DNA from: a virus
Direction: 5' to 3' (one strand)
Virus record (IMG/VR): IMGVR_UViG_3300032285_002684
Span: 1 to 48,178 of that record
Length of the DNA: 48,178 nt
Part shown: piece by piece, positions 2,707 to 20,110 of the stretch
How the letters are laid out: each line of letters begins with the position of its first letter
Position numbering within the stretch: the stretch's first letter is position 1
Notes under the pieces: model-generated
The model's database searches: none
The model's input: only the letters and a program-made list of their open reading frames with translations
Told to the model about the DNA's origin: nothing
Translations under genes and position numbers: made by a program

Positions 2707-3753
2707 TTACGACCTTGGGGGCTGTGCACGACGCAGCGTATTCTTCCACCAATCACTAACCGCTGGCGTCAACCCAGAGATGTCGGGAAGCATGTCAGAG
2801 ATTCGGTACTGGTTGTCGTCGAGCATGCCGTTAGGGTAGAGGTCGGCGGTGGTGGGGCCCATGTAACGGGGAGCTGCGGGAGCGGGGGCAGGAGCTTCGG
2901 CTTCTGCGGCCGGCATCGGCATGGTGGGTGCGCGGCGGAGCTGCTCGCCATAACGACGGGCTCGCTCGTTGGCAATGACGGCACTGGGCAAGATGCGCGG
3001 CGCGCCCTTAGCCTGATCCAGAGCTGGAGTTGCAGGCATGCGGGCAGGAGCTGCAGGAGTTGCTTCTCCCTCGGTGAGCTGTCGGTACTGGTCGGGAGTG
3101 ATCTCGTTGTTGTACAGGGCCTGCAGGTAGTCGTCCATCGGAGCCGCCTGTGGTGCGGGAGCTGCAGGGGCAGGTGCGGCAGCGGGAGCAGAGGTCTTGG
3201 TCTTGCCACGGCCACGGTAGGCTGCTTCCTGCTTGGCGGCTGAGGCGGCCCAGAAGGCTCGGGTCTTTTCGTTGTGGGCGCGGTCAGCTTCAAACTTCTC
3301 AGCGCGACGAATCTCCGAGATCTTGTCCTTGATCATCTCCTGCATATGGCGCTTGGTGTAGTTGTCCGTCATGCGGTCAACCTTAGAGGAAAGGTCGATC
3401 AGACCGGCGATGGTGTTCGCGTTGCCGATTTCGCCAACTGAAACAGTCTGGGGAGTAATGGTTTTTTGCGGGTTTTGTGGCGGTTGCGTTTGACCCGGTG
3501 TCGTCGGTGGTGTAGTGTTGGCGCCGCTAGCGGGAAGTGCGCTAGCCCCACTTGCAGCTCCGACTCCACTGCCCAAGCCCGAAGTCGTAGAGCCACCCCC
3601 CACATTTCCTGGAACAGTTGGTGCTTGCCAATTTGCGTTTGGATCGAGAAGGCCGCCGTACGGGTTGCTTTGTGCAACTGGTGGGAGCGGGTTGAAGAGC
3701 GGCGCGCTCTGCCTGCGGAATGCTGGATCGAAATTTGGATTGAAGATTGACAT
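2707..3753 (-). CDS. Low-complexity Pro/Ala-rich protein, probably virion-associated
   Basis: The protein has 348 residues. The first about 100 are Asn/Pro/Gly/Thr-rich and disordered in appearance. A charged helix follows (about residues 125-175), then long Pro-Ala runs with short helical islands. It resembles disordered virion or scaffold-like phage proteins but has no recognisable domain. AAGGAG lies just before ATG 3751-3753. It is the first gene of the leftward operon and starts 38 bases from the divergent helicase gene. Confidence 0.55.
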   Translation of the reverse strand: MSIFNPNFDPAFRRQSAPLFNPLPPVAQSNPYGGLLDPNANWQAPTVPGNVGGGSTTSGLGSGVGAASGASALPASGANTTPPTTPGQTQPPQNPQKTITPQTVSVGEIGNANTIAGLIDLSSKVDRMTDNYTKRHMQEMIKDKISEIRRAEKFEADRAHNEKTRAFWAASAAKQEAAYRGRGKTKTSAPAAAPAPAAPAPQAAPMDDYLQALYNNEITPDQYRQLTEGEATPAAPARMPATPALDQAKGAPRILPSAVIANERARRYGEQLRRAPTMPMPAAEAEAPAPAPAAPRYMGPTTADLYPNGMLDDNQYRISDMLPDISGLTPAVSDWWKNTLRRAQPPRS

Positions 3754-3791
3754 ACTGGCTCCTTAGGGGCTGAACAACAGGAGGATACGCG
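3754..3791. promoter_or_regulatory. Divergent junction with two ribosome binding sites
   Basis: Only 38 bases separate the divergent starts at 3753 and 3792. They hold an AAGGAG site for the leftward gene and a GGAGG site (near 3779-3784) for the rightward helicase gene. No sigma-70-like promoter fits between them, so any divergent promoters must overlap the coding regions or be unusual. Confidence 0.5.
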
Positions 3792-5189
3792 ATGAAAGTC
3801 TTGACGCAACGGAACCCGCTGAACAGTGCAGAGCCCATGATGATTGCGAGGGCCATTTTGCGAGCGAGGTGGACGACACCGCAGGGAAGGTTGGGGTTGT
3901 GGGAGTGGCGAGGTGAGCCGTGGGAGTGGTACGCAGGTACGTGGGTAAGAAGGGATGAGCGGTGGTTGGAGGAGGCGCTGTGGTTGGCCATGGAAGATGC
4001 ACATGTGCAGACGCCGACGGCTGCGGGCATCGTGACGAGGCGGTTGGGACCGACGACGCAGACCGTGATGAACGTGCAGGCCGCGTTGAGGGCCCTCATT
4101 CGGCTGAAGCAGAGCTATGCGCCCGCGTGGTTGGGCACGGTGACGGATGCTCCAGCTATGGAGAGGTGTGTGGCGTTTGAGGATGTGGTTGTGGATGTGC
4201 TGACGGGCAGGACTATTGCGAGGGATGAGCTTTTCTTTGAGCCGGTGGTCGTGAATTGCGCGTGGGACCCGTCGGCGGTGTGTCCGACGTGGATGGGGTG
4301 CTTGGAACAGTGGAGTGGTGGGGATGAAAAGTGGGTGAAACTGCTGCAGAGGGCCATGGGGGCGATGTTGATGCCGACACGGAGGTGGCAGCGGTGGCTG
4401 CTTATGCAGGGACGGGTCCGTGGCGGTAAGGGAACCATTATGCGGGTCGTGAAGAACCTCGTGGGGGATGGTTTTAGGGGTCTAAGCATGGCCCAGATCG
4501 CCAGTCAGTTCGGGTTGTGGGGTGCGGAGGCCGCAAGGGTGCTGAGCGTAAGTGAATTTGGGGCGTTGAACTCCAGGGAAAGTGAATTGGCGGTGGCAAA
4601 CATGAAAAATATCGTGGGTGGAGACCCCATTACGATTGACCGTAAGTACATGGAGCCTATTAGGGATGTGGTGATCCCGGGTTTCTTGGTGGTTCAGAGC
4701 AATGAGATCCCCAAGTTGCCCAATAGGGGGCAGGGTTTGGCGAGCAAGATGCTGGTTCTGCCGTTTGCCAATAGCTTTTTGGGCCGGGAGGACCTGCAGT
4801 TGGGGGATAAGTTGGCGGGTGAGACGGCGGGTATTGCGGCGTGGGCGCTACAGGGGGCTAGGGAGTTGTTGGAGGAGACGGATGCGGGTCAGTTGTGGCC
4901 TGTTCCGGCCTTGGCCGAGGAGGTCATGGGTCGATTCCAGTCTTTGAATAATCCAGTGCAGGACTTTTTGGAGGCGCACTTCACGCAGCAGGACGCGGCG
5001 TTCGTTAGTACGACCACGGTGTGGGCCCTTTGGAAGCAGTGGAAGGTGAAGGTGGGTTATAGGGAGGACCTGAGTCAGGCGCAGTTGGTACATAGGCTGG
5101 TAGAGGAGAGCGCGTGGAAGCTTACCAGGGCTCGGTTGGGCGAAGAGAGGATTCGCGGAGTCAAGGGACTGGTTGTAAGGTCCGAATAG
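3792..5189 (+). CDS. D5-type SF3 replicative helicase (possible primase-helicase)
   Basis: The 465-residue protein has the helicase half of phage D5/P4-like DNA primase-helicases. Walker A is GRVRGGKGT (residues 207-215), the Walker B region is VLSVSEFG (E255) and the sensor-1 asparagine is in VVQSNE (N304). The N-terminal 150 residues are Trp-rich and resemble the D5_N region. No complete primase active site is visible, so priming may come from the host. It should unwind the template for the polymerase at 13892. GGAGG precedes ATG 3792. Codon use is odd: many AGG, GGG, TTG and GTG codons, whereas the next plus-strand genes use C-ending codons. Confidence 0.85.
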   Translation: MKVLTQRNPLNSAEPMMIARAILRARWTTPQGRLGLWEWRGEPWEWYAGTWVRRDERWLEEALWLAMEDAHVQTPTAAGIVTRRLGPTTQTVMNVQAALRALIRLKQSYAPAWLGTVTDAPAMERCVAFEDVVVDVLTGRTIARDELFFEPVVVNCAWDPSAVCPTWMGCLEQWSGGDEKWVKLLQRAMGAMLMPTRRWQRWLLMQGRVRGGKGTIMRVVKNLVGDGFRGLSMAQIASQFGLWGAEAARVLSVSEFGALNSRESELAVANMKNIVGGDPITIDRKYMEPIRDVVIPGFLVVQSNEIPKLPNRGQGLASKMLVLPFANSFLGREDLQLGDKLAGETAGIAAWALQGARELLEETDAGQLWPVPALAEEVMGRFQSLNNPVQDFLEAHFTQQDAAFVSTTTVWALWKQWKVKVGYREDLSQAQLVHRLVEESAWKLTRARLGEERIRGVKGLVVRSE

Positions 5190-5286
5190 GGTGTTATTGG
5201 GGGGAGACAAACTGGTGTTATTGGACTAGGGGGACAGGGGGTCACCCTTGTTTTTTGGGGAATATCGAGGGTGGGGGGTCTTGGGC

Positions 5287-5462
5287 GACCACGTCCCGAC
5301 CACGTCTGACCAGGAGAGGTGGTCTAGGTTAAGTGCTTGTTTCTCCTTACTTTATATCTTTCTGACCAGGAAGACCAGGAGAATAGGAAAGTAGAGAGCT
5401 GGAAGCCCTATGGGGAGTACGGTTTTTTGGAGACATGGTCGGGGTGGTCGGTATGGTCATGT
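5287..5462. other. Iteron-like GACCA/TGGTC cluster, candidate replication origin
   Basis: GACCA occurs at 5287, 5298, 5308, 5364 and 5373. Its complement TGGTC occurs at 5320, 5436, 5445 and 5454. Spacings of 9 to 12 bases fit one side of the helix. CGACCACGTC is duplicated 11 bases apart (5286-5295 and 5297-5306), GACCAGGA occurs three times, and TGGTC heads three 9-base tandem units. The two groups flank an AT-rich patch. Iterons next to a melting region and a helicase gene are typical of origins, but the repeats could also be operators or decayed helicase coding sequence. Confidence 0.45.
5329..5358 (+). promoter_or_regulatory. Weak candidate promoter in the AT-rich patch
   Basis: TTAAGT (5329-5334) and TATATC (5353-5358) are 18 bases apart and match the sigma-70 boxes in 3 and 4 of 6 positions. 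This is the most promoter-like pair upstream of the gene at 5721, but the match is poor and hairpins lie between it and the gene. The same AT-rich patch could instead be a DNA-unwinding element. Confidence 0.2.
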
Positions 5463-5550
5463 GGAATAGATGAGGAAATTTTGGGACGGGTTCCCCCTTT
5501 CCTTCCAATAAAGCCGTCCCAACTGGGGGCCAAGGGGGGTATCGCCCCGG

Positions 5551-5593
5551 TAGCGCCGGGCTTCGCCCTCGGCGCTAGCGCCCAGTGGGGCGC
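5551..5593 (+). other. Tandem GC-rich hairpins
   Basis: Two hairpins abut. The first (5551-5577) pairs TAGCGCCG with CGGCGCTA and has a short inner GGC/GCC stem over TTC. The second (5578-5593) pairs GCGCCC with GGGCGC over an AGTG loop. Neither is followed by a T-run, so they are better described as structured RNA or DNA elements than as classic intrinsic terminators. Confidence 0.6.
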
Positions 5594-5631
5594 ACGGACA
5601 GTGAACTGCTTTCTGGTTCTTGGTCTGGCCC

Positions 5632-5658
5632 CCCTGCCCCCCTATGGAGGGGGCAGGG
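5632..5658 (+). terminator. 10-bp perfect hairpin, terminator-like without T-run
   Basis: CCCTGCCCCC (5632-5641) pairs perfectly with GGGGGCAGGG (5649-5658) around the loop CTATGGA. No T-run follows. The centre CCTATGGAGG is shared, apart from one base, with the hairpins at 6015-6030 and 6073-6095. It may act as a weak or factor-dependent terminator, an mRNA-stabilising 5' structure, or an attenuator ahead of the gene at 5721. Confidence 0.5.
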
Positions 5659-5720
5659 TGTCCTACATCTCTTTGATGTAACCCTGCTTCCACATCTTCC
5701 TTGCATAAGGATTCACTACC

Positions 5721-6008
5721 ATGTCTGATAACAAGACCGTCATCGTTCCGGCCCGCGTCGTTGTCACCTCGACTGAGCAGTGGGGCCTCAAGGCCGTCCT
5801 CGAGGTGCAGGTGCCGGGCACCAATCTGTGGCTTCCCGCGAAGGCTGTGGCTTTCGAGCAGAAGGGCGGCTCGCTCCTCTCCTACATCGAAGTCGCTGGC
5901 CAGTCCCTCAAGCGTTTCGCCGCCTCCATCGGCGTCTCCCCCTCTTCCTCGCCCGTGCGCGTGGATACCCCGGCCCCCGCTTCCACGGCCACAGAGGAGT
6001 TGATCTGA
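5721..6008 (+). CDS. Hypothetical small protein, 95 residues
   Basis: I do not recognise the family. Residues 1-65 alternate hydrophobic and polar residues, suggesting a small beta-rich fold (VIVPARVVVTSTEQWGLKAV). The C-terminal 25 residues are Ser/Pro/Thr-rich with an acidic end. AAGGA lies nine bases before the ATG. It is the first gene after the intergenic repeat region and is followed by two hairpins, so it may be its own short transcript. A compact beta fold with an acidic tail recalls phage ssDNA-binding proteins, but there is no firm evidence for that. Confidence 0.6.
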   Translation: MSDNKTVIVPARVVVTSTEQWGLKAVLEVQVPGTNLWLPAKAVAFEQKGGSLLSYIEVAGQSLKRFAASIGVSPSSSPVRVDTPAPASTATEELI

Positions 6009-6014
6009 CCCTCG

Positions 6015-6030
6015 GGGCCTACGGAGGCCC
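6015..6030 (+). terminator. Short hairpin after the 95-residue gene
   Basis: GGGCCT pairs with AGGCCC over an ACGG loop, followed by the weak T-run TCTTT. It begins seven bases after the stop of the gene at 5721-6008. It is a plausible weak intrinsic terminator and contains the CCTACGGAGG core found in two other hairpins nearby. Confidence 0.5.
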
Positions 6031-6072
6031 TCTTTCCGGTCCTTCCCAAACTCTTATCACTGAGACGGGGTC

Positions 6073-6095
6073 GGCCCCCCCTACGGAGGGGGGCC
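6073..6095 (+). terminator. 8-bp perfect hairpin between small genes
   Basis: GGCCCCCC (6073-6080) pairs with GGGGGGCC (6088-6095) around the loop CTACGGA. No T-run follows. The loop differs by one base from the loop of the hairpin at 5632-5658, which suggests a repeated structural element rather than chance. Confidence 0.5.
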
Positions 6096-6156
6096 TCCCC
6101 CTGGAACTGGTGTTCAGTTCCACTACTCCACACACAACTCGCACAGGAGACACATC

Positions 6157-6567
6157 ATGAACAACGACCTGCACAACGAAATCCAGTCCGCACTCGCCAA
6201 CATCACGGACCCGGAGTTGCTCTCCCTGGCCAACATCCCCACCCGGTGGACACGGGCACAGGACACGCTGCTTTACAGCCAGTACCTCGTCAAGGTGCCC
6301 AACACCCCTAACGAGCCACTCATCGCCATCAATGGCGTCTGCGTCTTCACTGGCCAGCCGTGGGGTACCGATGCTTACCCAGAAGACCTGCTCTTCACCG
6401 GGCTCTACCTGTGGGCCGGTGGCACTCCAGCCCAGGCAGCCCTGCGCTTCATGTCCGCCTCGGAGCGTGAGTTCCTCATCTCAGGCATCAGCCCCCATGG
6501 CTGGGCCTGCATGGAAGATCACGAGGAGCCCGGTGACCGCGAGCCGTTCTTCCCTCCCGCCCTCTAA
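6157..6567 (+). CDS. Hypothetical protein, 136 residues
   Basis: The family is not recognised. The protein is acidic, with helical ends and a central segment rich in Gly, Pro and Trp (GVCVFTGQPWGTDAYPEDLL). It has no membrane helix or signal peptide. The start has a good AGGAGA site ten bases upstream. It lies in the run of small, separately leadered plus-strand genes between the candidate origin and the AAA/VWA genes, where early host-takeover or accessory replication proteins are expected. Nothing more specific can be said. Confidence 0.65.
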   Translation: MNNDLHNEIQSALANITDPELLSLANIPTRWTRAQDTLLYSQYLVKVPNTPNEPLIAINGVCVFTGQPWGTDAYPEDLLFTGLYLWAGGTPAQAALRFMSASEREFLISGISPHGWACMEDHEEPGDREPFFPPAL

Positions 6568-6582
6568 CCCAAGGACCCAGCC

Positions 6583-6720
6583 ATGACACTCCCCGAAGTG
6601 TTCTTCCTCGTGGCCGTTGCCTCAGCCTTCTGGCTCATGGCCTTCACCCTGGCCTCCATCGCCAAGCCCTCCTCCCGCAAAGAGATGGGCATCCACCTCC
6701 CCGAGGACGACTCCGACTAA
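6583..6720 (+). CDS. Small single-pass membrane protein, 45 residues
   Basis: Read directly from the sequence. ATG 6583 has AAGGA nine bases upstream, and the frame runs to TAA at 6718-6720. Residues 4-27 form a hydrophobic helix (EVFFLVAVASAFWLMAFTLA), followed by a short basic stretch and an acidic tail, so the C-terminus is probably cytoplasmic. It follows the 136-residue gene by 15 bases and is followed by a strong hairpin. It could be an early inner-membrane protein such as a superinfection or host-modifying factor, or a holin-like protein placed away from the lysis genes. Confidence 0.6.
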   Translation: MTLPEVFFLVAVASAFWLMAFTLASIAKPSSRKEMGIHLPEDDSD

Positions 6721-6733
6721 CTCCTTGTGCACA

Positions 6734-6768
6734 CCCCGCCGGGCAGCCGGGAGGCCCGCCCGGCGGGG
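6734..6768 (+). terminator. 10-bp GC-rich hairpin, terminator-like
   Basis: CCCCGCCGGG (6734-6743) pairs perfectly with CCCGGCGGGG (6759-6768) over a 15-base loop. It starts 13 bases after the stop of the 45-residue membrane protein. The following CGTATTAGATCTTT contains only a delayed T-rich stretch. Confidence 0.6.
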
Positions 6769-6872
6769 CGTATTAGATCTTTCGCATTGCTCACCTAACC
6801 GTGTGCAGTGCCTTTCAGGCATCCATGTTGGTTGCCTTTCACTCCCATCCTCCTACATAGGAATCACTCGCC

Positions 6873-7397
6873 ATGAAACTCGCTGACGCTCAGAAGACTC
6901 TCCTCGTCGTTCCCGGTAACTACCCCGCCATGCTGACCCTCGCCACTTGCCAGCCCGGCAAGAAGGATCCCTCGGCCACCAACATCAATGTCACGCTCGA
7001 GGTCATCCTCGACTCGGGCCGCACCGTCCGGATGTGGGACCTGCTCCCCGACATCGAGAAGAACCCCAAGGTCTTCTTCCGCTACGAGCAGTACATCAAC
7101 GCCCTCGCCCTGACCCTCGCACCCGACTTCGACCTGACCCCGCGCACCTTCGCTGCTGAACTCAACAAGGCCAGCAACGAGGGCATCTGCTTCCAGGTCG
7201 CCGTCACCATCGAGGAATCCGTTGGCTATGCCCCTCGCAACGCCATCAAGTCCCTCAAGCCTGCTGACATGGACCTCATCCAGCACGTGGCCCGTGCTCA
7301 GCGCCACGACTCCGACACCGACGCTGCCGCTCAGCCCTCGAAGCTCAGCATCAACGATCAGCAGTCCCCAGCCTCTGAAGACCGCCAGCTCATCTGA
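6873..7397 (+). CDS. Putative OB-fold ssDNA-binding-like protein (DUF669-like)
   Basis: The protein has 174 residues. The middle part resembles the beta-rich core of phage DUF669/gp2.5-like ssDNA-binding proteins (INVTLEVILDSGRTVRMWDL, then a hydrophobic helix and a second beta segment). The C-terminus is polar and acidic, as ssDNA-binding protein tails often are. A second protein of exactly the same length, also DUF669-like, is encoded at 21124-21648, but the two are not obviously alike in sequence. The ribosome binding site is a modest AGGA. The assignment is tentative. Confidence 0.6.
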   Translation: MKLADAQKTLLVVPGNYPAMLTLATCQPGKKDPSATNINVTLEVILDSGRTVRMWDLLPDIEKNPKVFFRYEQYINALALTLAPDFDLTPRTFAAELNKASNEGICFQVAVTIEESVGYAPRNAIKSLKPADMDLIQHVARAQRHDSDTDAAAQPSKLSINDQQSPASEDRQLI

Positions 7398-7403
7398 CCC
7401 GCA

Positions 7404-7433
7404 ATGGGGGTGGGTACCTGTGCCCACCCCCAT
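7404..7433 (+). terminator. 11-bp perfect hairpin after the 174-residue gene
   Basis: ATGGGGGTGGG (7404-7414) pairs perfectly with CCCACCCCCAT (7423-7433) over TACCTGTG. It lies seven bases after the stop at 7397 and just before the AAGGAG of the next gene. No T-run follows, so it may stabilise the upstream mRNA end or act as an attenuator. Confidence 0.6.
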
Positions 7434-7453
7434 CACCACAAGGAGAACTCGCC

Positions 7454-7996
7454 ATGTCCTTCTATCGAATCAACGACATCCGCCAGTCCGACATTGTCGG
7501 TAACACCCTCTCGCTCGGTAACATCCCCATCCGTCTCGAGTCCGGCCGTATGGAACTCGTCGACCCCAACAACGCCGTGCCCGCCGTCGACCCCGACGGT
7601 TGCGACACGCCCAACTTCTCGATCCGCACCTGCGACTCGACCCACGCCGAGCGCCTCCGCTCCCTCAACTCCAGCACCCGTCGCTCCGCCAACACACTGC
7701 TCATCCAGCGTCTTGGCCACCGCACGGCCCTGGCCTTCATCCAGCAGGACGACACCCTCTCCCGCTCCATGGCTGCGTTCTTCGGTCGCTTCAACGCAGG
7801 CGACATCGACGCATCCAATCTCCCCCCACGTGTCCGGGACCGCAACGCCAATCCGTTCCTCCCTACCTCCGGTGACCCTGACTTCCGTCGCCGCTCTGGC
7901 TCCTATCGCCGCTATCGCCGCTGTGACTCGCATCCGCAGTTGCTCGACTCGTCGTGGGTCGGGCCTGCTTCTCGCCACTCTTCGGAGATCATCTAA
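7454..7996 (+). CDS. Hypothetical protein, 180 residues
   Basis: The family is not recognised. Residues 1-60 look beta-rich with Asp/Asn/Pro-rich turns. Residues 65-110 form a helical region, and the C-terminal 50 residues are strongly Arg-rich (FRRRSGSYRRYRR), suggesting contact with nucleic acid or membrane. AAGGAG lies nine bases before the ATG. The stop overlaps the next start as TAATG (7994-7998). It is the first gene of a coupled set that leads to the AAA ATPase and VWA genes, so it may be a partner of that system. Confidence 0.6.
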   Translation: MSFYRINDIRQSDIVGNTLSLGNIPIRLESGRMELVDPNNAVPAVDPDGCDTPNFSIRTCDSTHAERLRSLNSSTRRSANTLLIQRLGHRTALAFIQQDDTLSRSMAAFFGRFNAGDIDASNLPPRVRDRNANPFLPTSGDPDFRRRSGSYRRYRRCDSHPQLLDSSWVGPASRHSSEII

Positions 7997-8559
7997 TGTC
8001 CAACCCCCTGGTCCATTCCATCACCATCAGCACCGCAGCGGGGGACGGCACTGTCATCGCCGTCTCCCGTACCCGCACACGAGGCAACGCCGTCATCGCA
8101 GATCGCGTCGAAGCCTGTGACTACGACTGCTTCGCCTCCACGCCCTTCGGTTCCAAGGCCGGTGCCCAGCACGAGATCCTCACCCAGCAATCACCCGACC
8201 ACTCCACTCCCGAACGCGTCTGGGTCGAACTCTTCGACCTCCTGTGCATGAAACTCATGATGTCGGCTGCCATGCGTGGCACCACCATCCTCAAGGATCA
8301 GGACGACCTCGGCCCCATCTCCCTCCCTGACCAGCCCGACCGTGTCGGACTCGTCGTCTGCCTGCCCAAGAACACCCAAGAATCCGACGTCTCCATCAAC
8401 GGCAAGTACATGCCCGACGTCCTGAAGTCCATGGGCTTCAACCCCAAGGCCCACGACATCCTGCAACCCAAGCCCCCCACCTGGGACCCGCACTACAAGG
8501 ACTCGCCCTACCCGGACGACTACAACGATCTGCCCTCTGACCCCAAGTACCCCTTCTGA
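7996..8559 (+). CDS. Hypothetical protein, 187 residues
   Basis: I chose ATG 7996, which overlaps the previous stop as TAATG. The open frame extends 14 codons further upstream, but that part lies inside the previous gene. The first 50 residues are Thr/Val-rich and beta-like. A central helix (residues 75-95) contains several Met and Cys residues, and the last 40 residues are Pro/Asp/Tyr-rich and extended. No domain is recognised. It sits two genes upstream of the MoxR-like ATPase. Confidence 0.65.
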   Translation: MSNPLVHSITISTAAGDGTVIAVSRTRTRGNAVIADRVEACDYDCFASTPFGSKAGAQHEILTQQSPDHSTPERVWVELFDLLCMKLMMSAAMRGTTILKDQDDLGPISLPDQPDRVGLVVCLPKNTQESDVSINGKYMPDVLKSMGFNPKAHDILQPKPPTWDPHYKDSPYPDDYNDLPSDPKYPF

Positions 8560-8569
8560 AAGGAACCCC

Positions 8570-8767
8570 ATGTCTGACCCCATCATGTCTCGCCTTCTCG
8601 AACTCGAGAAGAAGCACAACGCCATCATCGACACGACTGCCAAGCTCTTTGAGAACCAGTCCGACATGATCATGGCCGTTGACAAGAAGTACGAACTCGT
8701 CCGCACACTGCTCACTGAAGTCCTCGAACTCATGAAGAACCACGCCACCAAGGAGACCACCAAGTGA
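8570..8767 (+). CDS. Small coiled-coil protein, 65 residues
   Basis: Almost the whole protein is one amphipathic, charged helix with heptad-like hydrophobic spacing (LLELEKKHNAIIDTTAKLFE), typical of a dimerising coiled coil. AAAGGAA precedes the ATG by six bases. Its TGA overlaps the GTG start of the AAA ATPase as GTGA (8764-8767), so the two are translationally coupled. It may be an adaptor or assembly helper for the ATPase. No family is recognised. Confidence 0.7.
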   Translation: MSDPIMSRLLELEKKHNAIIDTTAKLFENQSDMIMAVDKKYELVRTLLTEVLELMKNHATKETTK

Positions 8768-9783
8768 ACATCTCACCCACCGCACGCGCCGCAATCCTCG
8801 CCCGCATCAACGCTGTCAAGGCAGCAACTCCCATCACCACACGGAAGGACACCATGCCCCCCACTATCGAGCCCGAGACCTACAAGCCCGCCTTCGATGA
8901 CGGCCTCTTCGCCACCAGCCCCGACGGCATCCCCGTCACCGGCACCACGCCTGCCACCCCCACCGAACGCATCGACCTCGAGCTCGACGACAATCTCAAG
9001 TCGTTCCTCATGTCCATCGGCACCTCGTCCGGCATCGAGAACCTCCGACTCATCGGTCCCGCTGGTTGCGGCAAGACCTCCATCGGTCAGTGGCTCGCCC
9101 AGGAAACCAACAAGCGCCTCCTCATCATGGACTGCTCCGTGATCCGTGAGCCACGCGATTGGTTCGGCTTCCGCACCGTGCACAACGGCAGCATCCGTTG
9201 GCAGGACACCGAGTTCGTGCGCGCCGTCACTTCCGGCAACTGCGTCGTCGTCCTCGACGAACTCAACCGCGCACCTGCCTCCGTGCTCAACGGTCTCATG
9301 CCCCTGCTCGACCACCGTCGTGCATCGTGGATCGAGGAACGCGGCGCTGCCGTACGCGTAGGACCCAACACCACGTTCGTCGCCACCACCAACATGGGTG
9401 CCAAGTATCTCGGTGCGTCGCCAGTTGACCTGGCCCTCCGCGATCGCTTCTCGCGTGTCGTCGAAGTCACCTATCTGCCCACCCCCAAGGAGGCCATGCT
9501 GCTCCAGCGTCGTACCACTCTTGACATCGACTCGTGCGTTGCTCTCGCTCACATCGCTTCCAACACTCGCGGCAAGAACTCCACGCACGAGCCCATCTCC
9601 ACCCGCGAACTGCTCGCCGCCGCTTCCGACATCGCCAAGTACGGTCAGCAGTCCCTCCGCTACACCATCCTGTCCAAGATCGAGGACCACTCGAAGCGCG
9701 CAGCGATGGCCACTCTCCTCGCCGGCAAGTTCCCCGGCCTCGTCTCGGACACCGTCACCACTACCAACACGGAGCCCTTCTAA
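8764..9783 (+). CDS. MoxR/CobS-like AAA+ ATPase
   Basis: The 339-residue protein has a full AAA+ core: Walker A GPAGCGKTS (98-106), Walker B VVLDELNR (D165, E166), sensor-1 TTN (208-210) and an arginine-finger region LRDRFSR (225-231). It is closest in style to CobS and MoxR ATPases, which work with VWA-domain partners to remodel or metallate a target. The partner follows directly, coupled by TAATG. Start: GTG 8764 with AAGGAG eight bases upstream; an ATG at 8854 would lose only a disordered N-terminus. CobS-like genes in phages are often listed as cobalamin genes, but nothing here proves a cobalt-chelatase role. Confidence 0.85.
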   Translation: MNISPTARAAILARINAVKAATPITTRKDTMPPTIEPETYKPAFDDGLFATSPDGIPVTGTTPATPTERIDLELDDNLKSFLMSIGTSSGIENLRLIGPAGCGKTSIGQWLAQETNKRLLIMDCSVIREPRDWFGFRTVHNGSIRWQDTEFVRAVTSGNCVVVLDELNRAPASVLNGLMPLLDHRRASWIEERGAAVRVGPNTTFVATTNMGAKYLGASPVDLALRDRFSRVVEVTYLPTPKEAMLLQRRTTLDIDSCVALAHIASNTRGKNSTHEPISTRELLAAASDIAKYGQQSLRYTILSKIEDHSKRAAMATLLAGKFPGLVSDTVTTTNTEPF

Positions 9784-11897
9784 TGTTTCAACGCATCCTC
9801 GACAACTTCGACATCGACACCAGCGGTTGGTTCGACACCGACGAGGGGGTTGCCAAGCGCAACCTCCTCACTCGCACCAGTGAGATCACCAACAAGATCT
9901 GGTCTCTCTGGGCCTGCCGCCCCATCCGTGTCCACTACGTGCCCCTCGAGACCATCGAGCGTCTCTCCATCACATCCGCCATCCACGCATTCGCCGGCCA
10001 CATGGACCGTTACGTGGCCGACTGGAGGCGTATGCCCAGTGCGAGCGAGAAGATTGACATGGTTGCCAACTTCATCAATGCCTATCGACACGGTGACATC
10101 TGGGACAACCCCAACGCACCCTATGACCCCAACACAGATCAGGGACCCGGCATCTATATCCCGGGCAGTCTCATCTCTGACCGCATGCTTGACCACGTCC
10201 CAGACATCTACACCTTGGCCGATGCCATCACCGGCTACGGCCTCGAGTCCATGGAGCGTGACAACGCATGCCTCAACATCGGTTACGACGGTCTCATGTT
10301 CGTGGCCGAAGCACTCAAGTCCACCAACTTGCCGCCCAACAGCAACAATATCACTGACCCACGCTCCGTCCACGCAGACTGCATGCTCGACATCTGGTAT
10401 GCAGCCTGTGTCCGTGACATCCGCAACAAGATCCTTACCCAATGGCCGGGCTGGCACTCCATCTTCGAAGCCCAAGACTCCGTGCTCCTTCCCCCCACGG
10501 AAGATGTTGCCTCGGCTGTCAAGACCAAGAGCAAGTATCGTTCGGAACTGCGTCGCTTCTGCATGGCCCTCGCATGGAACCTCAACGCAGCCCCCGACCA
10601 GCGCATCCCGTTCCCAAAGCAGTTCAAGTCTGCCTATGACCTGGCCGTCCAAGCGTGGCCCGGCATCCTTTCCAAGTGTCGCACCAACGAGGACCACATC
10701 TTCGCCATCAGCCAACTCGTCCACGACCTCACTTGCATCCTGTCCCCCCGCGAGGAGAAGCCCAAGCGCAGTACCACTCCTCGTCGTGGCAGCAGCGGAC
10801 TCGGTATCGACGGTACTCCTGACAAGGACGAGTCCTTCCACCGCAAGCAGCACGCAAGCGGCGACTCCGTCATCGAGCCGTCCAAGGAAGATGCTGAATG
10901 GGAACCCACCGACTCGCGCTGTGTGGGCATCCCCCCACCATCCATCTTCTACGACATGATGACCGAGGAGCAGATGGCCCCCGTTCTCGCACGCAATCCC
11001 AAGTTGCGTGAGTACGCAGTCAGGTCCAAGCACCTCCAGGACAAGGTCCGTGCTCCCATCGCCGAAGCCATCAGTGCTGCTGCGTGGCACGTGCCTGCCC
11101 CACCACCCACCGACCATGCCCAACTCCAAGGCGTTCTCGACGAGGGCAGCCTGCTCAACCTTGCAGCCTTCAACGATCCGCGTATCTTCTCCGTCCCCCC
11201 CGAAGCAGGCCATGGACAGATCGCCATCGCCGTCGTGCTTGACTCCTCCTCCTCCATGTCCCTCAACGTCTACCCCACGGAGATCGACCCCGCTACCAAC
11301 ACGTACGAGCCCAGTCACAACGTGATGCAAGAAGCACTTGCATTCCTCGCCGGTCTCAAGGACGGACTGGCCCGTGCATCCAACGTCTCGCTGTCCTCCT
11401 TTGCTTACTTCAGTGGTTCTATCCACGACGACAGTGACTACATCCTGCACACCAAGTCCGATCCATCTGCAGACAGCACTCTCTCCGTGTGCAACATGCG
11501 TCGCCTCGACACTGACTCCGCACTGCTCTACTCGTACCCCACAGGTGGCACCCCATCCGCAACCGCGATCAAGTCTGCGTCCGATTACCTCTTTGCTCAT
11601 CACCCCGACGCAACCAAGATCATCATCCATCTCACTGACGGTGCACCTTGCGGTCGCGTCGAGGATCCTTACCACAACCAGGAACCCTTTGATGATGGCA
11701 TCTCCAGCGTCCGCCACATCGTTAACAACATCCCCATTCCCGTGTTCACCGTCGGCTTCGGCTTCGGCATTGATGCACAGACTCTCCGTCAGCAGTACAA
11801 TCACGACAAGTGGTTCAAGGTTGAGTCCCCGCTGGATGCCGTGCCCGTTGCATGCCAGCTCATCACAGGAATTGGTCAGTGTCTTGCCAACCAGTAG
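9783..11897 (+). CDS. VWA-domain protein (CobT-like partner of the AAA ATPase)
   Basis: The protein has 704 residues from ATG 9783, which overlaps the ATPase stop as TAATG. The first 480 residues are a helical, partly charged region of unknown fold, with a disordered linker near residues 325-370. The C-terminal third is a von Willebrand A domain with a complete metal-ion-dependent adhesion site: DSSSS at 487-491, TGGT at 587-590 and LTDG with D619. CobT/BchD-type subunits and MoxR-associated VWA proteins share this plan. The target is unknown. Confidence 0.8.
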   Translation: MFQRILDNFDIDTSGWFDTDEGVAKRNLLTRTSEITNKIWSLWACRPIRVHYVPLETIERLSITSAIHAFAGHMDRYVADWRRMPSASEKIDMVANFINAYRHGDIWDNPNAPYDPNTDQGPGIYIPGSLISDRMLDHVPDIYTLADAITGYGLESMERDNACLNIGYDGLMFVAEALKSTNLPPNSNNITDPRSVHADCMLDIWYAACVRDIRNKILTQWPGWHSIFEAQDSVLLPPTEDVASAVKTKSKYRSELRRFCMALAWNLNAAPDQRIPFPKQFKSAYDLAVQAWPGILSKCRTNEDHIFAISQLVHDLTCILSPREEKPKRSTTPRRGSSGLGIDGTPDKDESFHRKQHASGDSVIEPSKEDAEWEPTDSRCVGIPPPSIFYDMMTEEQMAPVLARNPKLREYAVRSKHLQDKVRAPIAEAISAAAWHVPAPPPTDHAQLQGVLDEGSLLNLAAFNDPRIFSVPPEAGHGQIAIAVVLDSSSSMSLNVYPTEIDPATNTYEPSHNVMQEALAFLAGLKDGLARASNVSLSSFAYFSGSIHDDSDYILHTKSDPSADSTLSVCNMRRLDTDSALLYSYPTGGTPSATAIKSASDYLFAHHPDATKIIIHLTDGAPCGRVEDPYHNQEPFDDGISSVRHIVNNIPIPVFTVGFGFGIDAQTLRQQYNHDKWFKVESPLDAVPVACQLITGIGQCLANQ

Positions 11898-11910
11898 AAG
11901 GATCCGCACT

Positions 11911-12192
11911 ATGCCATCTGAAGCCAATGGAACTAACCTGCGTACTCTGTGGCACGCTTTCAAGCAGCGACCCATACCCGCCATCACACTTGTGGATCTG
12001 CGCCATGAGGACACAGGAGCCCGCTACCCAACCCTTTGCATCATCGAGTCTCACCCCGACGGTGACAAGCTCTTCCCCTACGCCTTCATGATCGACCGCG
12101 ATCAGCACGAGCTCTGTCGCAAGCTCATCGTGCCCGATCAATACGAAGCCATCTGGGATTGGTGCATCCCCCCACAGAAGGAGCCCGCATGA
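11911..12192 (+). CDS. Hypothetical protein, 93 residues
   Basis: ATG 11911 is preceded by AAGGA and follows the VWA stop by 13 bases, so I prefer it over longer upstream frames. The protein is compact and mixed alpha/beta, with no membrane helix (PIPAITLVDLRHEDTGARYP near the start and a Trp-rich end). Its TGA overlaps the start of the uracil-DNA glycosylase as ATGA. Family unknown. Confidence 0.65.
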   Translation: MPSEANGTNLRTLWHAFKQRPIPAITLVDLRHEDTGARYPTLCIIESHPDGDKLFPYAFMIDRDQHELCRKLIVPDQYEAIWDWCIPPQKEPA

Positions 12193-12914
12193 ACCTACCA
12201 CTGCTACCCTCCGCCCCATCCTGCACTGCCTGCGAACTGCACAAGCACGCAAAAAACCCTGGAGTCCCCGGGGTTTTTCTTTCTGAGTCGTTGCTACCTT
12301 CACCCCTTACACCCATGGTCGCAGTGCTCGGCATGAACCCAGGCTTCCAAGAGGACCGCTTCAACGAGCCATTCGTTGGGCCATCAGGCAAGATGCTCAA
12401 GGAGATCTACCTCCCATCCATCCTGCCTCACGCCTCAGTCATCCTTCTCAACGCAGCACGCTGCTACACACCAGCCGCTGCACCACCCAAGCCCCGTCAC
12501 TTCCGCACTTGTTTCCCTGCCTTCTCTGCTCAGGATCTCAATGCCGTTGGCCAACTCATTGCCCCCCACGTTCCCAAGATCCTGCTCTGCGTCGGTGCCC
12601 ACGCCATCTCCACTGTCACCAAGTTCACACAGCCCAAGCCCTGGTCGCTAACCTCTGCATTCAACCGACAAGGTACACCGACCGGACTATGGGGAGACTG
12701 GCAACTGTTCACCACGTTCCACCCAGCCGCCGTGCTCCGCTCTCGTAACCTCCTCCACCCCGTTGCCGACCACATGACCCTCGTGCACTCAGCACTCATC
12801 GGCCAGATGCCCGTAGCATCCAGCCCCCGCATCGTCACCCCCTTCTCGCCCAACGACCCAACGGAAGCCAACCACTGGAACGATGAGTTCCGCAAGAACC
12901 CCAAGATGAACTGA
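12189..12914 (+). CDS. Uracil-DNA glycosylase, family 4-like, Fe-S
   Basis: The 241-residue enzyme should remove uracil from DNA during repair. Four cysteines fit the family 4 cluster pattern C-X2-C...C-X15-C (C12, C15, C92, C108). The uracil-pocket motif reads GMNPGFQEDRFNEPFVG (48-64): GMNPG is as in SMUG1, while the ED and PFVG parts are family 4-like. The HPAAVL motif is at 178-183. I chose ATG 12189 (ATGA overlap), because the CxxC pair lies near this N-terminus. A strong intrinsic terminator lies inside the gene at 12252-12278. Confidence 0.8.
   Translation: MNLPLLPSAPSCTACELHKHAKNPGVPGVFLSESLLPSPLTPMVAVLGMNPGFQEDRFNEPFVGPSGKMLKEIYLPSILPHASVILLNAARCYTPAAAPPKPRHFRTCFPAFSAQDLNAVGQLIAPHVPKILLCVGAHAISTVTKFTQPKPWSLTSAFNRQGTPTGLWGDWQLFTTFHPAAVLRSRNLLHPVADHMTLVHSALIGQMPVASSPRIVTPFSPNDPTEANHWNDEFRKNPKMN
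12252..12278 (+). terminator. Intragenic intrinsic terminator or attenuator
   Basis: AAAAACCCTGG (12252-12262) pairs with CCGGGGTTTTT (12268-12278) over a five-base loop, allowing one T-G pair, and runs on into CTTTCT. This is a canonical rho-independent shape with U-tract. It lies 63 bases into the uracil-DNA glycosylase gene, upstream of the polymerase. It is nearly symmetrical, so it could also act on the other strand. Confidence 0.7.
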
Positions 12915-12917
12915 TCC

Positions 12918-13094
12918 ATGGACACGTTGATCGAAACGCTACAGTCTTCGTCATGCCCAACGTGCAAGTCAGCACTCATGGAGATCATGAAGCTGCGTCA
13001 TGCCATGCGAAAACTATTTGAGCTAGAGAAGATCCATGCACAACCAGATACACGAGTTCCAGCAACTCATCCCAGTCAACACCCCACTCGGTGA
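12918..13094 (+). CDS. Small CxxC protein, 58 residues
   Basis: Read directly from the sequence. ATG 12918 follows the glycosylase stop by three bases. The frame gives an N-terminal CPTC pair (residues 13-16), a charged helix (residues 20-40) and a polar tail. It overlaps the next gene by 59 bases. No clear Shine-Dalgarno site is present, so translation would depend on coupling. The single CxxC could help bind a metal in a dimer. Confidence 0.4.
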   Translation: MDTLIETLQSSSCPTCKSALMEIMKLRHAMRKLFELEKIHAQPDTRVPATHPSQHPTR

Positions 13095-13254
13095 GGGGTA
13101 CCTCCTGTACATATGCAACCCAGGTATGTACACCAACTCCTGCTACGCCGTGGTCCTTGACGACGGACGCATCCGCCACTTCATGGATCACCAGATCACC
13201 GTCATCCGCAACGACACACTCCAGATCCATCCAAAGGAATCAGATGAAAGCTGA
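13036..13254 (+). CDS. Small phage protein, 72 residues, beta-rich
   Basis: The protein looks like a small beta barrel: a Gly-rich start (LGEGYLLYICNPGMYTN), a central strand pair around VVLDDGRIRHF, and a final strand ITVIRNDTLQI. Similar short proteins are common in environmental phage replication regions, with no known function. A weak AGAAG precedes the ATG. It overlaps the next gene by 11 bases and belongs to the chain of tiny coupled genes before the polymerase. Confidence 0.6.
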   Translation: MHNQIHEFQQLIPVNTPLGEGYLLYICNPGMYTNSCYAVVLDDGRIRHFMDHQITVIRNDTLQIHPKESDES

Positions 13255-13480
13255 CAACAACATCGACGAGATACGTGACACGCTGCGTGTCCTCCGCAAT
13301 CGCCACGCCAACGAGGACGCATCACTCAAGGCATACAACACAATCGAGTACTGCCTCGAGCAGATTTTCAACTACTGCCACAAGCAGATTGAAGACGGCT
13401 ACATGCGCAACCGCGATCTCAACAAGCGCAACACCCAACTCCTCTCCAAGATCCAAGAACTCGAGGCCCGCGAACAATGA
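13244..13480 (+). CDS. Coiled-coil protein, 78 residues
   Basis: I chose ATG 13244, which has AAAGGA six bases upstream and overlaps the previous stop. The open frame continues upstream, but only through the previous gene. The whole protein is charged helix with heptad-like spacing (DTLRVLRNRHANEDASLKAY, later LSKIQELEAREQ), so it probably forms a coiled coil. Its TGA overlaps the next start as ATGA (13477-13480). Family unknown. Confidence 0.65.
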   Translation: MKADNNIDEIRDTLRVLRNRHANEDASLKAYNTIEYCLEQIFNYCHKQIEDGYMRNRDLNKRNTQLLSKIQELEAREQ

Positions 13481-13725
13481 CCTCCCCCCAATTCAAGTTG
13501 AATAGATTGGCTATGCATCAAGAGTGGTTTGACAACAACCAAAAGCTCCTGTTCTTGGAAGCGCGTGGCGTAATGCGCGAGTTGCTTGCGATGTGCAGAG
13601 AACGAACTGCAGAGCGCGACGAGGCACGGCGCATGGTGTGCCGTTCGCAGTTCACCATGACCGAACTTCAACATGACTACGCCAAAGACAAAGGCTGGGA
13701 CTGTTTCAAGGAATCAAACAAATGA
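13477..13725 (+). CDS. Hypothetical helical protein, 82 residues
   Basis: The protein is mainly charged helix, with three Met-rich positions and two cysteines (LLAMCRERTAERDEARRM). The start and stop both overlap neighbouring genes as ATGA, so it is firmly part of the coupled chain at 13244-15889. The function is not recognised. A helical bundle or coiled coil is likely, possibly a replication accessory factor given that the chain ends in the polymerase. Confidence 0.65.
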   Translation: MTSPQFKLNRLAMHQEWFDNNQKLLFLEARGVMRELLAMCRERTAERDEARRMVCRSQFTMTELQHDYAKDKGWDCFKESNK

Positions 13726-13895
13726 AGAAGAAGAAAGACATGATCAAGGATGCAGCCGAACTCCTTGAGGATATGGACGACGCATTCCTTGACTACACCC
13801 TTGAAGAGTTTGGCAACTGGGAAGAAGCGTTCGATCTCATCGACCGAGCCCGCACCTTCCTCACCGACTACCTCAACGAAAAGGCTGCCCCATGA
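13722..13895 (+). CDS. Small acidic protein upstream of DNA polymerase, 57 residues
   Basis: Read directly from the sequence. ATG 13722 overlaps the previous TGA, and its own TGA (13893-13895) overlaps the polymerase ATG, both as ATGA. The protein begins with a Lys cluster (MKKKKDM) and then is strongly acidic and helical, with Trp and aromatic residues (EEFGNWEEAFDLIDRARTFL). Double coupling makes it very likely to be a real gene. It may be a polymerase-associated or DNA-mimic type protein, but that is only inferred from charge and position. Confidence 0.75.
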   Translation: MKKKKDMIKDAAELLEDMDDAFLDYTLEEFGNWEEAFDLIDRARTFLTDYLNEKAAP

Positions 13896-15889
13896 AACTG
13901 ATCTCCCTTGACATCGAGACGTACGGCTCATGCGTCGCCAACGCCAAGGGTCAATCCCTCCCCTCGCAGTCCGTGTTCCATCCTCAGCGCGCCATGCAAA
14001 CCGACGGCGTCTCGAAGGACAACATGGTCCTCACCTGCACCATCACCACCGAGGTCCACTCGTGCCCGTGCACCAAGAGCTACACGCCCATCACACTCGA
14101 CAAGGCCAAGCCCTGCTGCACCTTCACGCTACACATGGATGTAGAAAAGGATCGCGTACTCCTGCATCGTTGGCTTACCTGGGCCGACACGATCCTCGGC
14201 ATGAACCTGCCCTTCGACCTGCAGTTCCTTCGCGCATGCGATCACCGCTTTCAGTTCGCTCTGCCCCCACACAGTAAAACTTTGTATGACCTCTCGATCC
14301 TTAACTATCTGCACTCGGAACTCAGGCCAGAGCGATCCCTCAAGTCTCTCGGTCCTGTCCTCGGTACTCATGCGTACAAGCGTACCATCAAGGACGGCAA
14401 GTTTAGGTCCCCCCACGATCCGCAGTTCCTTGACTACGCAGCGCAGGACACGCACAACACCCTGCTTGCCTCATCCGAGTTGGCCCGTCGCATCCTGATC
14501 GACTGGCCCGACACGGACAAGCTCTCGCCCTACTGCATCCAGCATTACTCCGACTGTCTGTGGACCATCATCACCATGTCCGAGGCCGGCATCCCCATGT
14601 CCCGCGAGGACCTTGGCGACATGCGTGAGACCATGCTCATCGCCTCCGACCTAGCCATGAAGTCCGCTGAGTACCACGGTGTCCAGCTAGAGGGCACCGG
14701 TTCTGCCAAGAGCAAGACCACCTTCCTCGACGAGTGCGTCCAGAAGCTGGCGTCTCGCAACATCGACGTCCTCTCCCATCCCCTTGCCCAGTTCACGGAG
14801 AAGACACGCGCGTTCTCATTCTGTGACGCCAACCGCAATCTGATCCGTGGCTTCCTCCTCGACACTGACACCAAGGAGATCGCCGTACTCACAGCTGCAG
14901 CCGCTCATCAGCGCGCACAGAAGATGCTCTCCACTTACATCTGGCCCCTGCTCGAGGGCAAGCGCAACAAGCCCGAGGACAAGTCGTCCACCGTGCTCCC
15001 GCTCCCATACCCCGGCGAGGCTGACGGGCTCGCCTTCCCAGTCTGGTATCCCGTGCCATCCGCCTCCAAGGACAACTCCGGCTCTGAGGGTGGCACCATC
15101 CAAGGCCGCATCACCTGCAAGAGTCCCTCGGCCCAGACCTTCCCGCCTGAGATCAAAGCCTGCATCAAGTCCCGCTTCCATGGTGGCACGATCCTGTCTC
15201 TCGACCTCTCGCAGATCGAGCTTCGCGTAGCTGCCCTGTGCTCCGGCGACAAGTCCCTTCTTGCCGCCTTCAACGATGGACTCGACTTGCACACTGACCG
15301 AGCCGTCCAGTTGTTTGGCGCGGACTCTATCACCCGGCCTAGCTTTAAGAAGTTGGAGCGTCAAGTGGGCAAGACCATGAACTTCGCCGACTTGTTCCTC
15401 GCCTCCCCCTTCCGAATGCGCATGTCAGTGCACGAGATGACCGGCCAGCTCATGCCCATGTCCTTCTTCGAACAGGTAGCCGAGACCCGGCCCGACGCCC
15501 GCCCCGGCCTCCATGCTTGGCAGCAGTACCTCCTCCAACGCGTCGACACCTACGGCCACCTCGCCCTCCCCTTCACCGGCCAGTCCCGCACCTTCGTGGG
15601 GGGAAGCGCCGAGCACCTCAACGAGATCGTCAACTTCCCCATCCAGACCCAGGCCGGCAACACCCTCCTCGCCATCCAGCGGGCCATTGCCCCCCTCCTG
15701 TCCCCCCACGTCAAGATGTTCCTCCAGATCTATGACGCGGTTTACCTCGACGTCCACCCCTCCGTGGACCTTGACACCCTCAAGTCCAAGATCAAGTCTC
15801 ACATTGAGGAAGTCCGTGACACCGGGTACTGGGCCAAGCTCCAGTCCCACTATGGCAACACAGTTCCCTTGGAGTACGACTTCAGCTAG
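13892..15889 (+). CDS. Family A DNA polymerase with 3'-5' exonuclease
   Basis: The 665-residue replicative polymerase has proofreading motifs Exo I LDIET (D7, E9), Exo II NLPFD (N105, D109) and Exo III YAAQD (Y182, D186). In the polymerase domain, motif A is LDLSQIELR (D438, E443) and motif B is RQVGKTMNFADLF (R490, K494, F498, F502). F498 matches E. coli Pol I F762, and F502 replaces the usual O-helix tyrosine (Y766). Motif C is unusual: QIYDAVYLDV, with YDA (614-616) instead of HDE; the catalytic aspartate D615 is kept. There is no 5'-3' exonuclease domain. It is coupled to the gene before by ATGA. Confidence 0.95.
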   Translation: MKLISLDIETYGSCVANAKGQSLPSQSVFHPQRAMQTDGVSKDNMVLTCTITTEVHSCPCTKSYTPITLDKAKPCCTFTLHMDVEKDRVLLHRWLTWADTILGMNLPFDLQFLRACDHRFQFALPPHSKTLYDLSILNYLHSELRPERSLKSLGPVLGTHAYKRTIKDGKFRSPHDPQFLDYAAQDTHNTLLASSELARRILIDWPDTDKLSPYCIQHYSDCLWTIITMSEAGIPMSREDLGDMRETMLIASDLAMKSAEYHGVQLEGTGSAKSKTTFLDECVQKLASRNIDVLSHPLAQFTEKTRAFSFCDANRNLIRGFLLDTDTKEIAVLTAAAAHQRAQKMLSTYIWPLLEGKRNKPEDKSSTVLPLPYPGEADGLAFPVWYPVPSASKDNSGSEGGTIQGRITCKSPSAQTFPPEIKACIKSRFHGGTILSLDLSQIELRVAALCSGDKSLLAAFNDGLDLHTDRAVQLFGADSITRPSFKKLERQVGKTMNFADLFLASPFRMRMSVHEMTGQLMPMSFFEQVAETRPDARPGLHAWQQYLLQRVDTYGHLALPFTGQSRTFVGGSAEHLNEIVNFPIQTQAGNTLLAIQRAIAPLLSPHVKMFLQIYDAVYLDVHPSVDLDTLKSKIKSHIEEVRDTGYWAKLQSHYGNTVPLEYDFS

Positions 15890-15898
15890 GCTACGGGG

Positions 15899-16456
15899 GT
15901 GAACAACGAACTCACGATCCTCGTGGACTCCAGGGAGAAGAAGCCGCTGCCCTTTCCGGAGCACCTTCCGTCGCTTCGGTCGGACCTGCCTGCTCTCTCC
16001 CGGAGTTCACGAACCCACCGCCTCAAGACCGAGAAGGTCACGCTCGTCACCGGGGACTACGCACTCAAGGGGTACGAAGCCGCCTGTCTCATCGAGCGGA
16101 AGGGTTCACTAGCCGAGGTGGCAGGGAACTGCTTGACCGCCGACGGTCGCCGCAAATTCACAGCGGCAATGGACCGACTCAAAGAAGCCTGCTTCTACCC
16201 CTACCTCCTGCTCGAGGGGAACCTGCTCGACACCATGAACCCCACCAAGGATCTGCCTGATCCCTGGAATGCGATTGACGCACTGCATCGCATCTTGCTG
16301 GAACGAAACATCGGACTCATCCTCCTACCCAACACCTCCATGAGTGCACGCCGTGCCGTGGCCGAGTGGGCAGTACGCCTCTTGGTCAACGCAGCCCTGT
16401 GCCCTATACTCCCTGCTATCACCCCCACTGAGGAACCACCATGTCCGACCACGTGA
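15899..16456 (+). CDS. ERCC4-type (XPF/MUS81-like) nuclease
   Basis: The 185-residue protein has the active-site pattern of ERCC4 nucleases: VDSREK (D10, R12, E13, K14), GDYAL (D53) and IERKGS (E66, R67, K68). These enzymes cut branched or flapped DNA, fitting a role in recombination or processing of replication intermediates. There is no helix-hairpin-helix tail, so it is a minimal catalytic domain plus a helical end. The start is GTG 15899, nine bases after the polymerase stop, with only a weak site upstream. The end overlaps the next gene by 16 bases. Confidence 0.8.
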   Translation: MNNELTILVDSREKKPLPFPEHLPSLRSDLPALSRSSRTHRLKTEKVTLVTGDYALKGYEAACLIERKGSLAEVAGNCLTADGRRKFTAAMDRLKEACFYPYLLLEGNLLDTMNPTKDLPDPWNAIDALHRILLERNIGLILLPNTSMSARRAVAEWAVRLLVNAALCPILPAITPTEEPPCPTT

Positions 16457-16947
16457 TGCTCAACACCATCGTCCGTAACACCTACCTGGGTAGCAAGACT
16501 GCCAATGCAACTACCCCCAGCTCGGCTACCTCCAAGGTTGCTACGACCACTCGACCGGCCACTGACACCGGAAGCAACGTGGGTTCAATCGTGTTTGGTT
16601 CGACGTGCAACTACATGAAGATCCACCCGTGGGCTGCATCGGGTACCCCCACGGTGCGAGTCATCGGTTGGGCCTACTGCATCGACACGCGCCTTTGGAT
16701 CCCCCACCTGATTGCCGAAGTCACCATGGCCTCGCTGCGTTCGGCTACGACCACCATCAATGGCACCGCCCTGAAGGCTGCTGCAACCCTAACCAAGGGT
16801 GCGGGTGACGCCAAGCTGTTTGCCCCATCGGCTGACAACGCAGATGCTTACTTCGTTGTGGATTCCCAGGGCTTTGAACTGGTTGAACTGCACTTCTATG
16901 CCGGCTCGACTGGCATCGCGGTGAACGCCCACGTTGGGGAGATGTGA
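16441..16947 (+). CDS. Putative structural protein, 168 residues
   Basis: After a Thr/Ser/Ala-rich, disordered-looking start (residues 15-45), the protein reads as a compact beta fold rich in Thr, Ala and Val with few charges, like phage decoration or fibre-associated proteins. GAGGA lies six bases before the ATG. Its TGA overlaps the start of the SGNH hydrolase gene. It is unexpected in a replication arm and is probably a partner or chaperone of the hydrolase, or a separately expressed virion protein. No family is recognised. Confidence 0.6.
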   Translation: MSDHVMLNTIVRNTYLGSKTANATTPSSATSKVATTTRPATDTGSNVGSIVFGSTCNYMKIHPWAASGTPTVRVIGWAYCIDTRLWIPHLIAEVTMASLRSATTTINGTALKAAATLTKGAGDAKLFAPSADNADAYFVVDSQGFELVELHFYAGSTGIAVNAHVGEM

Positions 16948-18428: not shown

Positions 18429-18438
18429 GGAGAACAAC

Positions 18439-19734: not shown

Positions 19735-20110
19735 GTTTGGTACTTTGCTCACCTCTGTGCTGCAGCAAATCATCAAGCCCACACTCGCTGAGTTGATTCG
19801 CACTGACCCTGAGATCACCAACAAGTCCACGTTGCATACTGCATTCAAGAAGTCCACGCAGAGCACCGTGTCTTTCTCCACGTTCAACACGTGGCTTGAA
19901 GCACTTGGCATTTCCTTCCGCAAGGTTGTGCAGATCGAAGGTATCACTACCAGTCCAGTCCCCGCCCCGGGCGGGGGGGCCGGCCCCCGCCCGGATGCAG
20001 GGGAACAGGAAGTTAGGTTTGACAACGAAGAGCAGTTGGATTTCCGCCCGTCGCGGGGATTCGGTGACGCCTTCGGTGAGATCGCACGTCAATCACAAGG
20101 ATTCCAATGA
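19691..20110 (+). CDS. Hypothetical protein, 139 residues, possible DNA-binding
   Basis: I chose ATG 19691, which has AGGAG nine bases upstream; the longer open frame reads back through the nuclease gene. Residues 15-90 are helical, with a pattern that could form a helix-turn-helix (TLHTAFKKSTQSTVSFSTFN). A Pro/Gly linker near residue 100 corresponds to a GC-rich palindromic tract at about 19964-19990, and the C-terminus is acidic. Its end overlaps the Sak4-like gene as ATGA. Function unknown; its position suggests recombination or replication. Confidence 0.6.
   Translation: MTTDPYPPSKLQRSEFGTLLTSVLQQIIKPTLAELIRTDPEITNKSTLHTAFKKSTQSTVSFSTFNTWLEALGISFRKVVQIEGITTSPVPAPGGGAGPRPDAGEQEVRFDNEEQLDFRPSRGFGDAFGEIARQSQGFQ

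Follow-up and report, generated by a model that had tools for sequence, protein, structure and literature searches.

The alpha protein of phage P4 is a D5-related helicase to which a primase is fused; it binds the origin through a C-terminal winged helix, and P4 replication involves iterons together with a second required region. The origin used by SV40 T-antigen carries pentamer sites in opposed orientation. Among staphylococcal elements, the short iterons recognised by the SaPI Rep proteins and by SCCmec Cch2 lie immediately 3' of the respective gene, and recognition is through the C-terminal domain of the protein; SaPI5 Rep belongs to the D5 helicases, and Cch2 is a D5-type helicase without a fused primase whose activity requires AAGTG, present there as three repeats (PMC7581432). 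In SaPI origins, opposed repeats load two hexamers head to head, mirroring SV40 (PMC9894130). The locus described here is of this known kind, a helicase gene followed on its 3' side by a candidate iteron origin; it is a new member, with GACCA pentamers in a phage family and a GC skew of reversed sign. It lies in the IMG/VR virus record IMGVR_UViG_3300032285_002684, analysed over its whole length of 48,178 nucleotides (the window).

The first and last 123 bases of the window were identical, indicating that the contig is circular and represents a complete phage genome. A large terminase (46217-48151, minus strand), a family-A DNA polymerase (polA, 13892-15889, plus strand), a Sak4-like protein and an exonuclease are encoded in it. 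A gene of the uracil-DNA glycosylase superfamily was also found at 12159-12914 (PF03167, 8e-16). The window showed no DNA similarity to named phages, and Rfam and tRNA searches gave no match. The plus-strand gene at 3792-5189 encodes a D5-type helicase of 465 aa, with matches to DUF5906 at residues 207-310 (3.7e-9), to Pox_D5 at residues 386-438 (7.5e-6) and to PHROG primase/helicase families. The best PDB sequence match of the helicase profile was the DNA primase 7ola (4.3e-11), which we take to be SaPI5 Rep. No primase was recognised either in the 465-aa helicase, where DUF5906 and Pox_D5 were the only domains, or among the ORFs scanned, and no bacterial relatives of the helicase were found. 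A gap of approximately 530 bp separates the helicase stop (5189) from the next likely gene (5721), which belongs to a plus-strand series. The repeat array is located inside this gap, 97 bp after the helicase gene, and the first-pass annotation had thus correctly placed it beside a D5-type helicase gene.

The array consists of nine GACCA/TGGTC pentamers at 5287-5458. The nine copies within about 175 bp that had been claimed were all present, when compared with an expectation of 0.6 per 176 bp from the 167 such pentamers in the genome. In 60 Markov-1 simulated genomes matched to the dinucleotide content of the window, the best GACCA cluster usually held 3-4 sites and rarely more than 5, with a single case of 7. 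The maximum for any pentamer in 30 simulated genomes was 5-8, and the observed nine lies beyond these maxima; runs of CCCCC also scored 9, only when overlapping copies were counted. The second-densest GACCA cluster in the window had 4 sites and fell within the ORF at 44019-46121, and no second iteron region resembling crr was seen. Successive pentamers are separated by steps of 11, 10, 12, 44, 9, 63, 9 and 9 bp, in agreement with a spacing of mostly 9-12 bases as proposed earlier, the exceptions being the steps of 44 and 63 bp. Neighbouring pentamers within blocks are accordingly about one helical turn apart.

The earlier description of two opposed groups flanking an AT-rich patch was correct as to the opposite orientation and the presence of the patch, while the grouping had to be revised to three blocks (>>><, >> and <<<, with GACCA as > and TGGTC as <). 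Block 1 (5287-5324) comprises GACCA at 5287, 5298 and 5308 and TGGTC at 5320; three of its four aligned units are exact in 17/17 loci, and the third unit shows a 1-base shift in the alignment, or reads GTCCA in L005 and L006. Spacer 1 (5325-5363), the candidate melting region, is the most AT-rich patch (69% AT versus 41% for the genome; 47-69% in relatives where measured), and it separates blocks 1 and 2. Block 2 (5364-5377) contains GACCA at 5364 and 5373, exact in 17/17 loci. The orientation flips across spacer 2 (5378-5435), which is 58 bp long with 52% AT and spans 58-61 bp in relatives. Block 3 (5436-5458) carries TGGTC at 5436, 5445 and 5454, retained in 17/17, 16/17 and 11/17 loci of the alignment, respectively; relatives have 2 or 3 copies, and the count of 16 at the second site is due to one contig that ends. 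A hairpin in the RNA or DNA was considered as the principal element and rejected, as the signal was weak (z of -2.0 and -2.7) and the long stem corresponded to the pairing of the inverted iterons.

The conservation of the array was investigated in 16 distinct IMG/VR loci collected by their helicases (62-92% identical), giving 17 loci together with the window. The array was located 3' of the helicase gene in all 16 relatives, with conserved repeat spacing, although the L029 contig stops inside the array. The usual order was >>><>><<<, with forward sites at offsets of 0, 10-11, 20-22, 74-79 and 83-88 from the first site, and reverse sites at 31-34, 146-153, 155-162 and 164-171. Two terminal reverse sites instead of three were present in L002, L003, L004 and L026, and L004-L006 had an additional block downstream. 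The mean pairwise identity over the 17 loci was 0.94 for the pentamers versus 0.61 for the spacers, and 0.92 versus 0.44 among the four divergent members. The distance from the helicase stop varied from an overlap with the stop up to 106 bp, and reached 571-699 bp in L023 and L003, where an insertion of several hundred bases (4235-4805 and 9408-10106, respectively) lies between the helicase and an intact array. The L003 insertion contains an open frame that is possibly protein-coding. The helicase frame did not run through the repeats in any relative: it ended ahead of them, or, in five cases, at a TGA overlapping the first repeat, as in the L024 group where the stop sits within the first TGACCA. 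Such rigid internal spacing in free surroundings is the imprint expected of a multi-subunit DNA-protein complex.

The sequences on both sides of the array were more variable. A G-rich leader (5190-5286, plus strand; GC skew +0.59) begins right after the helicase stop with two copies of GGTGTTATTGG at 5190-5200 and 5214-5224, 24 bp apart. The leader sequence is not kept in distant relatives and is absent from the L024 group; variants of GGTGTTATTGG are present again in some relatives. Just past the array, the element AAATTTTGGGACGGGTTCCCCCTTTC (5476-5501) occupies the same place in closer relatives, is altered in L002-L006, and may be part of the origin. With its position in the 530-bp gap ahead of a plus-strand gene series, the array would also suit an operator, through which a repressor or activator of the phage (the helicase being one possibility) controls the rightward early genes from 5721, and multiple, helically phased operators are possible. 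In relatives, however, the array is kept while the stretch between it and the next gene has mostly diverged, and helicase-adjacent arrays recur in unrelated phages. No sigma-70-like promoter was detected at 3500-6300 either, which is a weak argument as the sigma-70 model may not be that of the host. We thus regard an operator as an improbable explanation of the array, and the operator and origin roles could coexist.

The DNA-binding part of the candidate initiator was sought in its C-terminal region. As the full-length helicase model was poor (pLDDT 45), the C-terminal domain was used alone. The AlphaFold2 model of the C-terminal 98 residues had a mean pLDDT of 80 and the element order H-E-H-H-E-E, and predicted a winged-helix-like domain at residues 386-465 (4947-5186, plus strand) as the proposed iteron binder. 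Its best PDB structure matches were RFX DNA-binding domains (E 2.5e-3 and 1.1e-2; TMt 0.68-0.74), followed by a weaker match to a portion of a D5-type PrimPol from a virus (E 0.075). The sequence-profile search with this domain gave no match and the E-values were modest (best 0.0025), so that the winged helix is taken as a fold-level hint. Direct recognition of GACCA by the helicase of the window appears likely.

In its anatomy, the locus resembles the SaPI and SCCmec origins that have been studied experimentally. Cch2 resembles the window protein in being a stand-alone D5-type helicase with no fused primase and with short iterons directly downstream, and its C-terminal DNA binder may have a counterpart in the predicted winged helix. 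The two differ in that Cch2 has three AAGTG repeats in a putative origin on a chromosomal cassette, whereas the window has nine GACCA sites in three opposed blocks on a phage. In SaPI5 and SaPIbov1, as in the window, the iteron origin (a candidate one in our case) comes right after the helicase gene and has opposed repeats; unlike the window helicase, in which no primase was recognised, SaPI5 Rep has a fused one, and the motif and spacing also differ. P4 alpha and its origin likewise combine a D5-related helicase, a C-terminal winged helix (predicted in the window) and iterons, but the fused primase and the second region were not found in the window. The SV40 origin has opposed pentamers as well, with double-hexamer assembly being a feature of SV40; the DNA-binding domain of T-antigen is N-terminal, and it is a functional analogue only.

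Taken together, conservation, position, the modelled domain and precedent supported the reading of the array as a replication origin of the phage, with helicase-recognised iterons of the self-loading-helicase type, to which we assign a probability of roughly 85%. The candidate origin proposed in the first-pass annotation, namely iterons plus a melting region beside a helicase, was thus strengthened by the conserved array and the SaPI/SCCmec-like layout, and the outcomes named there as refuting it did not occur. Counting against this reading are that sign, the lack of a recognised primase in the ORFs scanned, the modest AT content of spacer 1 (47-69%), and the 10 of 17 D5/VapE phages without a strong array in a simple test. 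In the mechanism we envisage, the C-terminal winged helix would bind each GACCA, and the opposed pentamer groups would position two hexamers head to head. Their ATP-driven assembly would melt one of the AT-richer spacers, and the hexamers would travel in both directions as 3'-to-5' helicases, leaving priming and extension to the family-A polymerase of the phage or to enzymes of the host. The chances of two hexamers and a bidirectional start are about even, and priming in SCCmec, where a family-A polymerase acts together with a small partner, is a possible parallel for the window. The uncultured phage family would thereby gain a delimited candidate origin of 170-220 bp and a candidate initiator. 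Centromeres, too, can consist of short repeats that are phased and fall into two groups, and the array would fit this type if it served the partition of a phage living as a plasmid. No ParA, ParM or ParB-like family was present among the ORFs scanned and the neighbouring gene is a helicase, making a centromere exceedingly improbable.

By the usual rule, the minimum of the cumulative GC skew marks the origin and the maximum the terminus. The change from G-rich to C-rich claimed for this point was indeed present, and the suggested check for an extreme of the cumulative skew, computed on the window, located a maximum at 5490, the reverse of the sign expected for an origin. Over the kilobase to the left of the array, the plus-strand skew is about +0.4; it turns negative abruptly on the right, fading with distance rightward, and the opposite extreme lies approximately half a genome away. 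The same switch was found no more than 0.9 kb from the array start in all seven relatives with both flanks assembled (7/7); the G007 contig ends 0.5 kb beyond the array, and only its G-rich left side is visible. Gene direction does not explain the skew, because the helicase and polA share a strand with opposite bias, both at third codon positions (G269:C74 versus G174:C370) and at four-fold sites (G117:C38 versus G55:C214). The G bias of the helicase is kept in relatives, with a GC3 skew of +0.41 to +0.59. Genes to the right of the helicase on the same strand (5721-21012) favour C-ending codons, and the helicase favours G-ending ones.

As the inflection at the array is a maximum instead of the minimum of a classic bidirectional origin, the skew was not counted as evidence for an origin. 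Its sign would instead be produced if forks converged or the DNA was cut here, as at a terminus or packaging site, with the plus strand single-stranded on the left and the minus strand on the right. The abrupt switch fading rightward, the opposed third-position biases of the same-strand helicase and polA genes, and the distant opposite extreme all fit such a site. Against it, about 5 kb separate the array from the terminase gene, and in three contigs that circularise (the window, G005 and G011) the array is interior and therefore not a fixed end; moreover, helicase-adjacent arrays are origins wherever studied. A terminus or packaging site is thus very unlikely. If the array is the origin, it sits at a conserved, abrupt asymmetry switch of reversed sign, and its replication would imprint mutations in a pattern that mirrors the usual one, for example because forks stop here or the leading-strand template is left single; we consider this reading rather doubtful. 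The reversed sign cautions against relying on skew alone to place the origins of phages. The idea that skew generally marks origins of this type was rejected, since four other iteron or D5 phages (Troy, R9Y2, G018 and G020) had no comparable switch.

Viral contigs were then scanned for phased GACCA triplets. The scan gave many more GACCA arrays, several of which, in independent contigs, lay immediately 3' of genes for replication helicases belonging to other families: VapE-like genes (L049, L050, L082 and L154), DUF5906 genes (L076, L084 and L122), and Toprim_3/AAA_25 (L060), Prim-Pol/AAA_25 (L045) and DUF927 (L088) genes. PF19263 was present in 11 of the 41 contigs that had dense GACCA arrays and in 3 of 50 that lacked them, which is supportive, but the sample is small and non-random. 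The scrambled control motif CACGAC also yielded dense two-strand arrays (17/120 versus 27/115 for GACCA), and in 7 of 17 named D5/VapE phages the helicase gene was closely followed by an array built from a different motif, such as GTGTAAC in LfeSau, TGCAAC in Bob and GGACAA in Troy. In the remaining 10 of these 17 database phages, the simple test did not find a strong array behind the helicase. On these grounds, the idea that GACCA serves phages universally as an iteron was rejected, and the layout is therefore shared while the motif is not. GACCA is the version of the phage family of the window, and its use by unrelated phages may reflect the chance recurrence of so short a motif. These results suggest that the SaPI/SCCmec layout, a helicase gene followed by opposed short iterons, is common among D5/VapE phages, and origins might therefore be findable behind the helicase gene. 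In three other contigs (L044, L142 and L150), intergenic GACCA arrays were seen without a nearby helicase and possibly have another function; in L142, the array is followed by terminase and portal genes.
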